From Falsiroseomonas tokyonensis (GTDB lineage: Bacteria > Pseudomonadota > Alphaproteobacteria > Acetobacterales > Acetobacteraceae), in contig NZ_JAFNJS010000005.1 of assembly GCF_019024325.1 (NCBI RefSeq), forward strand, positions 186,001 through 250,000: 64,000 nucleotides of DNA. The letters run 5' to 3'. Below are positions 22,885 through 36,505 of this stretch, piece by piece. The translations under genes and the position numbers were made by a program. The notes under the pieces were generated by a model. That model searched no databases and was not told where the DNA came from. It was given only the letters and a program-made list of their open reading frames with translations. Each line of letters begins with the position of its first letter. The stretch's first letter is position 1.

Positions 22885-24450
22885 ATGGGCGTTGAAATTT
22901 TAACGCTACCGGTCAGAACGTCCCTTGCGCCGGGGCTCTGCACGCTCGTCGATCCGGATCTAATATACCTTCATCTGATCTCGGATGTTGCGATTGGTCT
23001 CGCCTATTTCTCCATCCCCGCTGCGCTGCTGATTTTCGCGCGGCGCCGGCGCGACCTGGCCTATCCCTGGGTGGTCCTGCTTTTCGCCGCCTTCATCATC
23101 GCCTGCGGCACCACCCATCTCATGCATGCCTGGACCATGTTCCGGCCCGACTACGAGACGGAGGGCCTGGTGAAGGTGGTCACCGCCGCCATCTCGGTCA
23201 CCACCGCCATCCTTCTCTGGCCGCTGCTGCCCCGCCTTCTCGCTTTGCCCAGCCCCCAGGCCCTGGCGCGGGAGGTGGAGGAGCGTCGCATTGCCGAAGC
23301 CCGCGCCCTGGCCAGCGAGGCGCGCACCGCCGCCTTCATCGAGCATCTGCCGGAGGCGCTTTTCGTGCTGCGCCCCGGGCCGCGCGGCGACTTCACCGCC
23401 GAGGCGGTGAACCCGGCCTTCGAAAGGCTCTACGGCATCGAGGACGCCAGCATCCGCGGCCACGACATGGCGGAGGTCCTGCCGCCCGCGCTGCTGGCGC
23501 GACTTCTGCCGCATTGGCGCCAGGCGATGGAGACGCGGCGGCCGGTGGACTATACGACGGAGGCCGAGACGGGGATCGGCTGGCGCGTCTGGCAGACCAT
23601 CCTGGTGCCCATGGTCGGACCGGATGGTCAGGTTGAGCGGCTTCTCGGCTCGGCGCGCGACATCACCATGACCCGCCGTCTGCAGGCCGACCTGCTGCAG
23701 AGCGCCCGTCTGGCCACCATCGGCACCATGTGCGCGGGCCTCGCGCATGAAACCAGCCAGCCGCTGAACGCTGCCATGCTCTGGACTCGCAATGCCCGGG
23801 CGGTGGCGGACGGGATGGAGCCGGCGGAAAGCGCCGACCGGCTGCGCCAGTCGCTCGGCATCATCGAGGGCCAGCTGCGCCGCGCGGGGGACTTGGTCGG
23901 CCGGATCCGGGCCCTGCCGGGCGAGGATGAGGGCACCCCCCAGCCCTTTGACGCCGCCGCCACCGCCGCCTCGGCGCTGCGTCTGGCCATGGGGCAATAT
24001 GCTGGGGAGGGCATCGACTTCGCCCTGCATAGCCAGGCCTCCACCCTGCCGGTGCAGGGCGTGCCGGCGCGGCTGGAACAGGCGCTGCTGCAATTGCTCG
24101 CCAATGCGCGGGATGCGGTGCTGGACCGGCGGGAGAGGGAGCCGGATGCGCCGATGCAGATCGTCCTGACGCTGCGCGAGGAGCCCGGAGAGGCCGTGCT
24201 GGAGGTAGAGGATAGCGGCCCGGGCGTGCCCGAGGGCTTGCGTGACGCGATCTTCGACCCCTTTTTTACCACACGCGAACCAGGGCGCGGCAGCGGGCTC
24301 GGCCTGCCGCTGGCAGCGGCGGTGGCGCGCGGGATGGGGGGAGGCATAGAGGCGCGAAACCGACCGGAAGGCGGTGCGCTGTTCAGCATGCGGCTTGCAC
24401 TCGCGCCAATGGCGAGTCTGCCGGCCGGAGGGGCTGTGACGAACCAATGA
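22885..24450 (+). CDS. Sensor histidine kinase with ethylene-receptor-like membrane domain (kinase 1)
   Basis: A 521-residue kinase. Residues about 25-125 form three helices that resemble the ethylene-binding domain of plant ETR1: ISDVAIGLAYFSIP and FIIACGTTHLMHAW. Asp34, Tyr41, Ile44, Pro45, Ile71, Cys74 and His78 match ETR1 Asp25, Tyr32, Ile35, Pro36, Ile62, Cys65 and His69 with the same spacing, including the two copper(I) ligands; Lys97 may match Lys91. A PAS domain (about 150-265), a phospho-acceptor region (GLAHETSQPLN, His288), and an ATPase domain (LLANARDAV, VEDSGPGV, GSGLGLPLA) follow. The next gene, a stand-alone receiver, overlaps by four bases (ATGA). Confidence 0.88.
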   Translation: MGVEILTLPVRTSLAPGLCTLVDPDLIYLHLISDVAIGLAYFSIPAALLIFARRRRDLAYPWVVLLFAAFIIACGTTHLMHAWTMFRPDYETEGLVKVVTAAISVTTAILLWPLLPRLLALPSPQALAREVEERRIAEARALASEARTAAFIEHLPEALFVLRPGPRGDFTAEAVNPAFERLYGIEDASIRGHDMAEVLPPALLARLLPHWRQAMETRRPVDYTTEAETGIGWRVWQTILVPMVGPDGQVERLLGSARDITMTRRLQADLLQSARLATIGTMCAGLAHETSQPLNAAMLWTRNARAVADGMEPAESADRLRQSLGIIEGQLRRAGDLVGRIRALPGEDEGTPQPFDAAATAASALRLAMGQYAGEGIDFALHSQASTLPVQGVPARLEQALLQLLANARDAVLDRREREPDAPMQIVLTLREEPGEAVLEVEDSGPGVPEGLRDAIFDPFFTTREPGRGSGLGLPLAAAVARGMGGGIEARNRPEGGALFSMRLALAPMASLPAGGAVTNQ

Positions 24451-24818
24451 CCTGGCGAATCCTGGTTGCCGAAGATGAGGGCCTGGCCGCCATGGCCCTC
24501 GAGGACGAACTGCTTCGGGCGGGCTATGAGGTGGTGCTGGCGCCGGACGGCCAAGCGGCGCTGGAAGCCGCCGACCGCACCCCGCCCGACCTGCTGCTGA
24601 CCGATCTGCGCATGCCGCGGCTGGACGGGTCCGGCCTGATCCGTGCCCTGCGCGCCGCACGCCCCGGCCTGCCCGTGGTGGTGATGACCGGCTATGCGCC
24701 GGCCGGCGGCGCCAGCGCCTTCGGACGGGACGGCGAGGGCCCGGTCGCGCTGTTTCCCAAGCCACTCGACATGGATGCGGTGCTGGCGGAGCTTCGCAAG
24801 CTGCTGCCCGGGCCGTAG
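24447..24818 (+). CDS. Stand-alone response-regulator receiver (CheY-like)
   Basis: A 123-residue receiver with the acidic pair AEDE (residues 8-11), phospho-acceptor Asp53 in LLLTDLRMP, the Thr in VVMTGYAP and the conserved lysine in LFPKPLD. It has no DNA-binding or enzymatic output domain. ATG overlaps the kinase stop, so it is the translationally coupled partner of kinase 1. Output must go through protein contact or phosphorelay; no downstream partner is visible here. Confidence 0.9.
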   Translation: MTWRILVAEDEGLAAMALEDELLRAGYEVVLAPDGQAALEAADRTPPDLLLTDLRMPRLDGSGLIRALRAARPGLPVVVMTGYAPAGGASAFGRDGEGPVALFPKPLDMDAVLAELRKLLPGP

Positions 24819-24849
24819 AAGATCCCCCGGGCGGCGGATGGGGCAGTCG

Positions 24850-25602
24850 ATGGGGTTTTCGCTCGCGGGTCGGGTGGCGCTGGTGACGGGCGCATCGGGC
24901 GCTTTCGGGCGCCACTTCGCCCGCATCCTGCACGGCGCCGGCGCCCGCGTGGTGCTGGGCGCGCGGCGTCCGGATACGGTGGCGGCGCTGGTCGCGGAAC
25001 TCGGCGAGGCCGCCATGGCGGTGGCGCTGGAGGTGACGGAGGAAGCCAGCATCGCCGCGGCGCTGGACCAGGCCGCCGCGCGCTTCGGCCCGCCCGGCAT
25101 CCTGGTGAACAATGCGGGCATCGCGGCAACGCGCCCCTTCCTCGACCATGATGTGGCGGATTGGGACCGGGTGATGCAGGTGGATCTGCGCGGCGCCTTC
25201 CTGGTGGCGCAGGCCGTGGCGCGCAGCATGGTGGCGGCGGGGCAGGGCGGGTCTATCGTCAATGTCGCTTCCATCCTGGGCAGCCGCGTGATTCCGGGCG
25301 TCGCCGGCTATTCCGCCGCCAAGGCGGGGCTGATCCAGCTGACCCGGCAGATGGCGGTGGAACTGGCCCGCCACCGCATCCGCGTGAATGCGCTGGCGCC
25401 CGGCTATATCGCCACCGAGATCAATGCGGGCTTCTTCGAGACCGAGGCCGGCCAGGCGCTGGTGAAGCGGATTCCGCAGCGTCGCCTCGGCACGGTGGAG
25501 GACCTGACCGGGCCGCTGCTGCTGCTGGCCTCGGAAGCCGGGGCGCATATGACGGGCAGCGTGCTGACCGTCGATGGCGGCCATTCCATCAACAGCCTCT
25601 AG
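24850..25602 (+). CDS. SDR-family NAD(P)-dependent oxidoreductase
   Basis: A 250-residue classical short-chain dehydrogenase: cofactor motif TGASGAFG, NNAG (about residues 86-89), catalytic Ser in NVASILGS, YSAAK (Tyr-x3-Lys, about 156-160) and the late PGYIATEI. ATG 24850 has GGATGGGG six bases before it; ATG 24838 is an alternative. It is 12 bases before the acyl-CoA dehydrogenase gene, so oxidation or reduction of a hydroxyacyl-CoA is plausible. Confidence 0.88.
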   Translation: MGFSLAGRVALVTGASGAFGRHFARILHGAGARVVLGARRPDTVAALVAELGEAAMAVALEVTEEASIAAALDQAAARFGPPGILVNNAGIAATRPFLDHDVADWDRVMQVDLRGAFLVAQAVARSMVAAGQGGSIVNVASILGSRVIPGVAGYSAAKAGLIQLTRQMAVELARHRIRVNALAPGYIATEINAGFFETEAGQALVKRIPQRRLGTVEDLTGPLLLLASEAGAHMTGSVLTVDGGHSINSL

Positions 25603-25614
25603 GACAGACCCCGT

Positions 25615-26817
25615 ATGGATTTCGCCCTGCCGCCCGAGATCGACGCCATCCGGATGCGGGTGCGGGATTTCGTCGACACCAAGCTGATCCCGCTGGAGGC
25701 CGACCGCGCCAATTACGACGAGCACGAGAACATCCATCCCGATGTCCTGAAGCGGATGCGGGCGGAGGCGAAGGCGGCGGGACTCTGGGCGCTGCAGATG
25801 CCGAAAGCGCGCGGTGGCGGCGGACTGTCCGTGGTGGGCATGGCGGCCTGCTACGAGGAAATGAACCGCTCCATCTTCGGCCCCGTGGTCTTCAACAGCG
25901 CCGCACCCGACGACGGCAATATGATCGTGCTGGAGAAGGTGGCGACGGAGGCCCAGAAGGCGCGCTGGCTGCAACCCATCATCGACGGCGATGTGCAGTC
26001 CAGCTTCGCGATGACGGAGCCCGATGGCTGCGGCAGCGATCCCTCCCTGACCTATACGCGGGCGGAGAAGATGCAGGGCGGCTGGCGCGTGACGGGGCGG
26101 AAGCACTACATCACCGGCGCCGGTGAATCGAAACATTTTCTCCTCATTGCCCGCACCAGCGATGATGACCGGCGCGGCCTCACCTGCTTTCTGTTCCATG
26201 CCGATCAGCCAGGCTGGCGCATCATCCGCCGCATCCCGATCATGGGGCCGGAGGAACATGGCGGGCATTGCGAGATCGAATTCGACGGCCTGGAGATCCC
26301 TGACGAGAACGTGCTGATGGGCATCGGCGACGGGCTGAAGCTGACGCAGATCCGCCTCGGCACCGCCCGCCTCACCCATTGCATGCGCTGGCTCGGCATG
26401 GGGCGGCGCGCCCTTGAGATCGCGATGGAGCGCATCGCCGTTCGCGAAAGTTTTGGCCAGAAGCTGATCGACCGCGAATCCGTGCAGGGGCTGGTCGGCC
26501 AGGCAGCGATGGAGCTGGAGATCGGCCGGCTGCTGACCATGAAGGCGGCCTGGGTGCTGGACCAGGGCGGCTTCGCGCGGAAGGAGGTCTCGATGGCCAA
26601 GATCGTCGTCGCCGATGCGCTGCACAAATCGGTGGATACGGCGCTGCAACTGCTCGGCGCGCGCGGCTATTCCAAGGACACGCCGGTGGAATGGATGTAC
26701 CGCTACGCCCGCCAGGCGCGCCTGGTGGATGGCGCCAGCGAGGTGCACCGCATGGTGCTGGCGAATTTCCTGCGCCGCGAGGGTCGCGACTTTTTCGCCT
26801 GGGGCGCGCATGGATGA
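25615..26817 (+). CDS. Acyl-CoA dehydrogenase, ACAD10/11-like
   Basis: A 400-residue flavoprotein of the acyl-CoA dehydrogenase fold. FAD-contact motifs are FAMTEPDGCGSDPS (about residues 129-142) and WRVTGRKHYIT. The position near the C-terminus that in medium-chain enzymes holds the catalytic Glu (IYEGT) reads LVDGASEVH, as in human ACAD10/11. The following gene is an aminoglycoside-phosphotransferase-fold kinase overlapping by eight bases, the same two domains that are fused in ACAD10/11. These enzymes are linked to 4-hydroxy-acid breakdown through a phosphorylated acyl-CoA; the same role is inferred here. Confidence 0.9.
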   Translation: MDFALPPEIDAIRMRVRDFVDTKLIPLEADRANYDEHENIHPDVLKRMRAEAKAAGLWALQMPKARGGGGLSVVGMAACYEEMNRSIFGPVVFNSAAPDDGNMIVLEKVATEAQKARWLQPIIDGDVQSSFAMTEPDGCGSDPSLTYTRAEKMQGGWRVTGRKHYITGAGESKHFLLIARTSDDDRRGLTCFLFHADQPGWRIIRRIPIMGPEEHGGHCEIEFDGLEIPDENVLMGIGDGLKLTQIRLGTARLTHCMRWLGMGRRALEIAMERIAVRESFGQKLIDRESVQGLVGQAAMELEIGRLLTMKAAWVLDQGGFARKEVSMAKIVVADALHKSVDTALQLLGARGYSKDTPVEWMYRYARQARLVDGASEVHRMVLANFLRREGRDFFAWGAHG

Positions 26818-27790
26818 GGCGGCGCTGCGCGGCTGGCTCGCGCAAGCGGCTGGCGATGACGCGTTGCGCATCACCGCGCTGACAAGGCTCTCGGGTGGCG
26901 CCATCCAGCAGAACTGGGCGCTGGATGTGGAAGTTGCGGGAACGAAGCGGCGCTGGGTGCTGCGCACGGATGCGCCTGCGGTGCTCGCCGTCAGCCACAC
27001 GCGGCCGCAGGAATTCGCGCTGTTGCGTGCGGCGCGTGAAGCCAGCGTGACGGTGCCGCAACCGCTCTTCCTCTGCGAGGATCTGTCGGTGATCGGCCGG
27101 CCCTTCTTCGTCATGGCGCGGGTGGAGGGCGTGGCCGCGCCACATCGCGCGGTGAAGGACCCGACGCTGGGTGGCGGGCGGCAGGCCTGCGTGGCGGCGC
27201 TGGGGCGCGAACTGGCCCGCATCCATTCCATCCGCCCGCCGCGCGCGGATCTCGCCTTCCTCGGCGAACCGCCGCCCGATGCGGCGCGGGCCGCCATTGC
27301 GGGCCTGCGCGCGCGGCTGGACGCCGCCGGAACGCCGCGGCCCGTGCTGGAATGGGGGCTGCGCGCGCTGGAGCGGAAGGCTCCCGCGCCGGTGCCGCCG
27401 GTGCTCTGCCACAATGATTTCCGCACCGGCAATGTCATGCTGGACGCGCAGGGCGTCGCCGCGGTGCTGGACTGGGAGTTCGCCGGCTGGGGCGACCCGC
27501 ATGCGGATCTCGGCTGGTTCTGCGCCAAATGCTGGCGCTTCGGCCAGGTGGCGCAGGAGGCCGGTGGCATCGGCCCGCGCGAGGCCTTCCTGGCCGGCTA
27601 TGGCCAGCCCGTGGATGCGGCGCGGCTGCCCTGGTGGGAATTGCTGGCGACCATCCGCTGGGCCGTCATCGCGGCCGATCAGGCGGCGCGGCACCTCTCC
27701 GGCCAGGAACGCAGCCTGGAACTGGCGCTGACCGGCCATATGGTGCCGGAGCTGGAATGGGACGTGCTGGCGATGGCGGAGGCGCTGTGA
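26810..27790 (+). CDS. Phosphotransferase-family protein (APH fold), ACAD10/11-type kinase
   Basis: A 326-residue kinase-like protein. The N-lobe has RLSGGAIQQNWAL; the catalytic loop LCHNDFRTGNVML (about residues 199-211) and the metal motif VLDWEFAGWGDPHADLG are intact. It overlaps the ACAD stop by eight bases. Stand-alone versions next to ACAD genes are common and correspond to the N-terminal kinase domain of animal ACAD10/11. It is therefore more likely a hydroxyacyl-CoA kinase than an antibiotic-resistance enzyme. Confidence 0.88.
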   Translation: MDEAALRGWLAQAAGDDALRITALTRLSGGAIQQNWALDVEVAGTKRRWVLRTDAPAVLAVSHTRPQEFALLRAAREASVTVPQPLFLCEDLSVIGRPFFVMARVEGVAAPHRAVKDPTLGGGRQACVAALGRELARIHSIRPPRADLAFLGEPPPDAARAAIAGLRARLDAAGTPRPVLEWGLRALERKAPAPVPPVLCHNDFRTGNVMLDAQGVAAVLDWEFAGWGDPHADLGWFCAKCWRFGQVAQEAGGIGPREAFLAGYGQPVDAARLPWWELLATIRWAVIAADQAARHLSGQERSLELALTGHMVPELEWDVLAMAEAL

Positions 27791-34618: not shown

Positions 34619-36505
34619 ATGATGGCCGATGTGTCGCGCTGGCTTTTCGACCCGGCGGGCCTCACCCCGCACGGCTTCTGCCTGATCTGGGAGCCGGGGC
34701 TGATCTGGGCGCACGCCTTGGCCGGTTTTGCCATCGGCCTGGCCTATTTCACCATTCCGGTGGCCTTGGCCGTCTTCGCAAGGCGCCGGCGCGACCTGGT
34801 CTATCGCCCGGTGATCTGGCTCTTCGCCGCCTTCATCATGCTCTGCGGCGTTGGTCATTGGCTGGACATCCTGACGCTCTGGGTGCCGGCCTATGGCATC
34901 CAGGCCGTGGTGAAGGTGGCGACGGCGCTGGTGTCCGTGGCGACGGCGATCGCCCTCTGGTGGGTGCTGCCCTACCTGCTCGCTTTGCCTTCCCCCGCCC
35001 GGCTGCGCGCGGCCGACCAGGCGCTGGCGGAATCCCGCCGTCGGGCCAGCTTCGAGCATTCGCCGGTCCCGCTTTTCACGCAGACCTTCGACGGCCTTGT
35101 GACCGACGTTTCCAATTCCTGGCTCGCCTTGCTCGGCTACGCCCATGGCGAGGTCGTCGGCCGGCCGCTGACGGATCTGCAACCGGCAGGCGCGACGGGT
35201 TGGGACAGCGGTCAGCGGAGGCTGCTGGAATCCGGGGAGTCCTGCGAATCGGAACAGCGGTTCCTGCATGCCGATGGTCGGATCGTCGATGCCTTGGTGA
35301 CCGCGCGGCTGGAACACAAAGGGGCGGATGCGAACCTCTCCTGCGTCCTGGTGGACATCACCGCCCGCAAGCGTGCCGAGGCGGCGCTGCGCACCAGCGA
35401 GGAGATGCTGCGGCAGTCGCAGAAGATGGAGGCCATCGGACGGCTCGCCGCCGGTGTGGCGCACGACTTCAACAACATCCTGCAAAGCATCGTGGGCGCG
35501 CTGGAGCTGGTGCTCGACGAACTGCCGGAGGGAACCACGGGGTACGAATATGCCGGCGTGGCGCTGGATGCGGCGGAACGCGGCTCCTCATTGACCCACC
35601 ATATGCTGTCCTACGCCCGCAAGCAGATCCTGCGGCCGCGCAACATCGCGCTCGGGCCCTTCCTGGCGGATATGCAGAAGCTGCTGGAACGCACGCTGGG
35701 GCCGCACATCACCGTCATCCTCCGTCCCACCGCAGCGCCCTCGACCTTGGCAGATCCCGGCCAGCTGCAGACGGCCCTGCTGAACCTCGCCATCAATGCC
35801 GCCCACGCCATGCCGCATGGAGGAACGCTGACGCTCGATGCCCAGCGCAGGTCCTATGGCGGCCGGGGCTGGGCCTGCCTCCGCGTGGCGGATACCGGAA
35901 CGGGCATGGATGCGGAGACCCTGGCCCATGCGGTCGACCCCTTCTTCACCACCAAGGGGCTGGAGGGAACCGGCCTCGGCCTGTCGATGGTCCAGGGCTT
36001 CGCCGAACAATCCGGGGGAAGGCTGCATCTGGTCAGCGTCCTGGGCGAGGGAACCACCGTGGAACTCTGGCTGCCCATGGTCTCGGCCGAGGCGCAGCTG
36101 GTGCAGCCGGCGGCCGTGCCTCGCCCGCTCAAGGGCCGAATCCTGCTGGTCGACGATTCGGCGGATGTGCTGCTGACAACCGGAAGCTATCTGGAGAAGG
36201 CGGGGTTCGAGGTGGTGCGCGCCGAAAGCGGCGACCGGGCGCTGGCCTTGCTGAAGGATGGGATGGTCTTCGACGTCCTCATCACCGACTACGCCATGGC
36301 CGGGATCAACGGGGCGGACCTGATCGTCGAGGCCCGCCTGCTGCTGCCGAGCATGCGGGCGCTGATGATCACCGGCTTTGCCGATCTGCGCTACACCGAC
36401 CTCCTGCCGGCCGGCACGCTGGTGTTGCACAAGCCATTCCAGCGCAAGGACCTGGCAGACGCGCTGCAAACCATCGTGCAGTCCGACCAGAAGCCGGTGG
36501 GATAA
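34619..36505 (+). CDS. Hybrid sensor kinase with ethylene-receptor-like membrane domain lacking the key Asp (kinase 2)
   Basis: A 628-residue hybrid kinase. Its three-helix N-terminal domain (about residues 25-125: ALAGFAIGLAYFTIP, FIMLCGVGHWLDIL) is clearly related to that of kinase 1 and ETR1. Cys76 and His80 (copper ligands) and Tyr43 are kept, but the position of ETR1 Asp25 is Gly36. A PAS domain (about 141-258), a phospho-acceptor helix (GVAHDFNNILQS, His282), an ATPase domain (LAINAAHAM, VADTGTGMD, GTGLGLSMV) and a C-terminal receiver (LLVDDS, LITDYAMAG, Asp557) follow. No separate response regulator is adjacent. Confidence 0.88.
   Translation: MMADVSRWLFDPAGLTPHGFCLIWEPGLIWAHALAGFAIGLAYFTIPVALAVFARRRRDLVYRPVIWLFAAFIMLCGVGHWLDILTLWVPAYGIQAVVKVATALVSVATAIALWWVLPYLLALPSPARLRAADQALAESRRRASFEHSPVPLFTQTFDGLVTDVSNSWLALLGYAHGEVVGRPLTDLQPAGATGWDSGQRRLLESGESCESEQRFLHADGRIVDALVTARLEHKGADANLSCVLVDITARKRAEAALRTSEEMLRQSQKMEAIGRLAAGVAHDFNNILQSIVGALELVLDELPEGTTGYEYAGVALDAAERGSSLTHHMLSYARKQILRPRNIALGPFLADMQKLLERTLGPHITVILRPTAAPSTLADPGQLQTALLNLAINAAHAMPHGGTLTLDAQRRSYGGRGWACLRVADTGTGMDAETLAHAVDPFFTTKGLEGTGLGLSMVQGFAEQSGGRLHLVSVLGEGTTVELWLPMVSAEAQLVQPAAVPRPLKGRILLVDDSADVLLTTGSYLEKAGFEVVRAESGDRALALLKDGMVFDVLITDYAMAGINGADLIVEARLLLPSMRALMITGFADLRYTDLLPAGTLVLHKPFQRKDLADALQTIVQSDQKPVG

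Follow-up and report, generated by a model that had tools for sequence, protein, structure and literature searches.

The two overlapping genes at positions 22885-24818 of the window, the 64,000-nucleotide stretch of the Falsiroseomonas tokyonensis genome analysed here, probably encode (with a probability of about 0.8, as judged from their sequences) an AzoEtr1-type two-component system for ethylene sensing, in which the 521-aa product of the first gene is probably functional as an ethylene receptor. The pair is a new putative member of the kind already demonstrated with AzoEtr1, and not a novelty; it would extend the bacterial ethylene receptor type, on good sequence grounds, from Azospirillum to the Roseomonadaceae. 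The features discussed below are collected in Table 1.

Table 1. Position and main characteristics of the genes discussed in the text (coordinates are those of the window, unless another locus is named).
Feature	Position	Strand	Characteristics
Receptor kinase	22885..24450	+	521 aa; ETR1_N residues 26-121, PAS_4, H-box His288, HATPase_c
Receiver-only response regulator	24447..24818	+	123 aa; phospho-acceptor Asp53; no output domain
SDR oxidoreductase	24838-25602	+	downstream of the receptor pair, same direction
Acyl-CoA dehydrogenase	25615-26817	+	downstream of the receptor pair, same direction
APH-like kinase	26819-27790	+	downstream of the receptor pair, same direction
Second ETR1_N kinase	34619..36505	+	628 aa; own receiver domain; Gly36 at the Asp25 place
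Photosynthesis cluster	L185 8062-16673, contig C57, same genome		pufC, pufM, pufL, bchZ, bchY, bchX, bchC

The reading frame of the receptor kinase is exact, with an ATG start at 22885 and a TGA stop at 24448-24450. A complete ETR1-like binding domain had been claimed for its product by a previous sequence-only reading of this DNA, and the profile search bears this out, as the ETR1_N family of Pfam (PF25487) is matched with 129.7 bits (E = 4.9e-38) against a cut-off of 27 bits; at this score a chance resemblance is ruled out. The same reading had located the residues correctly: all of the seven residues on which ethylene binding by ETR1 depends are found, namely Asp34, Tyr41, Ile44, Pro45, Ile71, Cys74 and His78, with 40 residues from Asp to Cys and 4 from Cys to His, and they are accompanied by Lys97, the equivalent of Lys91. 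In the eight-letter code used hereafter, consisting of the seven residues required in ETR1 plus the Lys91 equivalent, the full site is written DYIPICHK. An unrelated three-helix family was also considered for the sensor and rejected, as at E ≤ 0.001 no Pfam family but ETR1_N matched residues 1-121. Solved structures offered no relative: a fold search with the sensor gave no match at E ≤ 0.001, only generic helix bundles being returned, and the single match in the solved-structure search was a zinc transporter with an E value of 2.6. In the AlphaFold2 model (63-row alignment, mean pLDDT 86.9) helices are predicted at residues 24-54, 61-84 and 90-119, and Asp34, the Cys74/His78 pair and Lys97 would lie on helices 1, 2 and 3, respectively.

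Downstream of the sensor, PAS_4 (residues 153-265) and HATPase_c (393-506) are both recognised by Pfam above threshold; the HisKA match falls short of its cut-off (20.6 vs 26.9), and the protein has an H-box with His288 as well as N, G1, F and G2 boxes. The start codon of the receiver gene overlaps the kinase stop by 4 bases (ATGA), and its product matches Response_reg with 63.8 bits against a cut-off of 30.2. The architecture of a PAS-kinase with a coupled receiver, also proposed earlier, is thus confirmed by the domains, the kinase boxes, the gene overlap and the acceptor aspartate.

The closest characterised relative was reached through a protein search of plasmid records, in which 950 records gave some match, mostly to the kinase part, and only 7, all from Azospirillum, had one place covering at least 80% of the query. 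The protein of A. brasilense Sp7 (NZ_CP012915.1, L026) is 40.8% identical to the 521-aa kinase over 96%; it is 525 aa long from its ATG, is followed by an overlapping gene for a 135-aa receiver, and has Asp35, Cys75, His79 and Lys98 in line with the residues described above. Because its length, overlapping receiver and residues fit the description in PMC11819568, we take it to be AzoEtr1. The two receiver partners are 50% identical. Lys98 of AzoEtr1, which has been aligned with ETR1 Lys91 (PMC11819568), aligns here with Lys97, and the tentative equation of Lys97 with Lys91 is supported in this way. According to the same source, AzoEtr1(1-130) expressed in yeast shows saturable binding of 14C-ethylene, AzoEtr1 disruptants show little or no ethylene binding, and the D35A and C75A variants do not restore biofilm formation (PMC11819568). 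The likeness in sequence and gene order to a demonstrated 14C-ethylene binder argues well for an ethylene-receptor-like sensor kinase, as initially suggested. Within 13.5 kb around AzoEtr1, of the window genes compared, only the kinase and the receiver were found, and in the open-licence literature no paper pairing Roseomonas with an ethylene receptor was retrieved.

By the mechanism that we propose, the receptor would be a dimeric membrane protein, each chain of which spans the cell membrane with three helices; Cu(I) would be held by Cys74 and His78 on helix 2, and Asp34 on helix 1, placed beside Lys97 on helix 3, would complete the site and couple it to the output. Ethylene binding at the copper would then change the autophosphorylation of His288, presumably lowering it as in the model for AzoEtr1 and SynEtr1, and the altered autophosphorylation would in turn affect phosphoryl transfer to the receiver-only partner at its Asp53.

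ETR1_N occurs at two places in the genome of the window, both inside the window, and the same profile search detected it in 13 of the 14 same-genus relatives (none in G004), in 46/200 sampled genomes of the family and 29/398 of the phylum (own genome counted in both), and in none of the 14 control genomes. All eight residues are kept in 11/14 of the genus relatives; since the sole match of two (G009, G011) carries an altered site and there is no match in one, the receptor function is dispensable. Among 160 distinct ETR1_N domains, a sample enriched for close relatives, 119 have the identical eight residues, so that the fidelity to ETR1, previously regarded as unusual, is instead normal for the family. 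In named genomes a scan yielded 196 relatives, and among the best 80 of them 79 have a complete reading frame, 49 of these 79 with a receiver match, in a few cases a weak one, just downstream. Plasmid p2 of Novosphingobium sp. ES2-1 carries an ETR1_N kinase whose gene overlaps that of a response regulator (L027 2968-4435); this plasmid is typed as conjugative and a Cas9 gene lies near the kinase. Moreover, five loci (L022, L071, L072, L073 and L020) hold relatives in which ETR1_N is present and most of the ligand residues are replaced (e.g., DCVLLLHA, ESILLDHA), which suggests decay or a change of ligand; in the tree they group close to the 521-aa receptor, on long branches that make their placing unsure.

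The 628-aa product of the second ETR1_N kinase gene (34619-36505) matches ETR1_N with 111.5 bits (cut-off 27), and its PAS, HisKA, HATPase_c and receiver domains each score over their cut-offs. It has six of the seven required residues, with Gly36 (codon 34724-34726) in place of ETR1 Asp25, and it retains Cys76, His80 and Lys99. The affinity of ETR1 for ethylene is set by Asp25: ethylene binding is lost in ETR1 without it (PMC11819568), and its change to Asn is stated in a review to lower the affinity about 100-fold (PMC13012798); by analogy with these mutants, little or no ethylene binding is expected of the 628-aa kinase. A close counterpart was found in only 1 of the 14 genus relatives, F. 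selenitidurans (G007), with 64% identity over residues 33-624; the next best genus matches cover the kinase part. The site of this counterpart reads DCGCLCNR versus DYIPICHK, the His being gone too.

The two sensors also differ in how they have changed between the genome of the window and F. selenitidurans, the one species pair for which dN/dS was obtained, by simple Nei-Gojobori counts. In the first receptor the sensor is the more conserved part, being 76% identical (87/115) with dN/dS 0.27, vs 70% (268/385) and 0.38 for the remainder. In the second kinase the sensor is only 40% identical (48/121), with a dN/dS of 0.53 for which synonymous sites are near saturation, and the remainder is 68% identical (343/501) with 0.35; because this sensor diverges much faster than its kinase part, it is judged to be under relaxed or changed selection. 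In the domain tree (157 rows, those shorter than 90 aa being dropped) the second sensor and the first stand apart; the second falls in a group of 14 rows (support 81, from few columns), six of them with Asn, Ser or Gly instead of Asp25. These data suggest that the 628-aa kinase is a diverging second sensor of another branch, less expected than the first receptor. The natural Gly, Asn and Ser variants found at Asp25 in bacteria, whose existence has already been noted in a review (PMC13012798), would provide a ready set for probing the role of this residue.

The distribution of these variants gives a hint, and a hint only because the tree-aware sign tests miss 0.05, of a coupling between Asp25 and Lys91. 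Of the 144 distinct domains with Cys65 and His69 conserved, 132 have both Asp and Lys, 2 Asp only, 3 Lys only and 7 neither (Fisher p 1.9e-8, the strongest association with Lys91 among 30 conserved columns); on the tree of 157 rows this comes down to 2 to 3 independent pairs on supported branches. A salt bridge between the two residues has already been proposed (PMC13012798). A second ETR1_N match is found in 4/7 genomes having an Asp25-altered, Cys/His-keeping sensor vs 9/48 of the others, a marginal difference (Fisher p 0.046) between groups defined after the data had been seen, in which two of the nine (G081, G167) are split fragments and the match of G145 (L197), which the profile had missed, is left out.

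The neighbourhood of the pair bears on what the receptor may sense. The three genes that follow it, for the SDR, the acyl-CoA dehydrogenase and the APH-like kinase, stand in the same order after the pair in six of the seven other genus loci compared (L186 and L188-L192; not L187), and HpxZ lies directly upstream in five of the seven. We take this three-gene set (24838-27790) to be reminiscent of hydroxy-acid, levulinate-type catabolism. Between 22300 and 28100 the scan found no promoter-like site, with 0.5 expected, and 4 terminator-like sites, with 1.9 expected; the stretch upstream of the receptor has a fold z of -1.68, and 13/200 shuffles were equally good.

Because acyl-CoA catabolic genes adjoin the pair here and do not adjoin AzoEtr1, the physiological signal could differ from that of AzoEtr1. 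A Cu(I) site is chemically generic, and the same site could serve another small pi-ligand (another alkene, acetylene or CO), ethylene being incidental, a reading to which the recurrence of the catabolic genes in the genus would lend some weight; we consider it improbable, however, since every ETR1 ethylene residue is kept, ethylene binding is demonstrated for AzoEtr1, the nearest relative to have been characterised (PMC11819568), and the search of the neighbouring genes revealed none recognisable as alkene-oxidising. That Cu(I) at Cys74/His78 is itself the signal, and the protein a copper sensor, would agree with the correspondence of this pair to the copper site of ETR1 (PMC6586836, PMC13012798), but appears very improbable: the ethylene-specific Asp, Tyr, Ile, Pro and Ile are kept too, and the neighbours searched included no recognisable copper transporter, chaperone or oxidase. 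We also give very little credence to a sensor that now binds nothing, in a protein acting as a PAS-sensing kinase. In fact, ETR1_N does decay in relatives, in which DYIPICHK has become DCVLLLHA (G011) or ESILLDHA (G156), as well as in the F. selenitidurans counterpart of the second kinase; the sensor encoded at 22885-24450, however, evolves more slowly than the remainder of its protein and has all of the ligand residues. An ethylene receptor of the AzoEtr1 type is thus the reading that we prefer for the 521-aa protein.

The host had been described as non-photosynthetic, and this has to be corrected, as pufL, pufM, pufC, bchC, bchX, bchY and bchZ are present in one cluster of its genome, each over its NCBIfam cut-off; judged by gene content, the host resembles an anoxygenic phototroph. 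The window offers the case of one genome in which a complete sensor and one altered at Asp25 occur together, and a more elaborate arrangement can be imagined, with two functioning gas sensors that use Cu(I) and lie about 10 kb from each other. The Asp34 receptor would then have high affinity for ethylene, the Asp-to-Gly kinase would be tuned to ethylene at higher levels or to a different small ligand, and the first would be wired to the operon for acyl-CoA catabolism of an anoxygenic phototroph. We regard this arrangement as rather unlikely; if true, the two Cu(I) sensors together would give a wide sensing range.

Compared with the known systems, the pair resembles AzoEtr1 in the ETR1_N-PAS-kinase order, in length (521 vs 525 aa), in the overlapping receiver-only partner and in the seven residues plus Lys, and differs from it in an identity of only 41%, in its other neighbours, the acyl-CoA catabolic genes being absent alongside AzoEtr1, and in the second ETR1_N kinase located about 10 kb away in the F. 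tokyonensis window. SynEtr1 of Synechocystis, as described in PMC11819568 and PMC7700396, shares the path from an ethylene-binding domain through a histidine kinase to a response regulator; it has, however, a light-sensing GAF domain and a regulator that activates transcription, whereas a PAS domain and a receiver without output are found here. With Arabidopsis ETR1 the 521-aa protein has in common, by way of the Pfam profile and AzoEtr1, the required residues and the Asp-Cys and Cys-His spacing; unlike the plant receptor, whose signalling is mostly independent of the histidine kinase (PMC11819568), it has its kinase boxes and its receiver intact.
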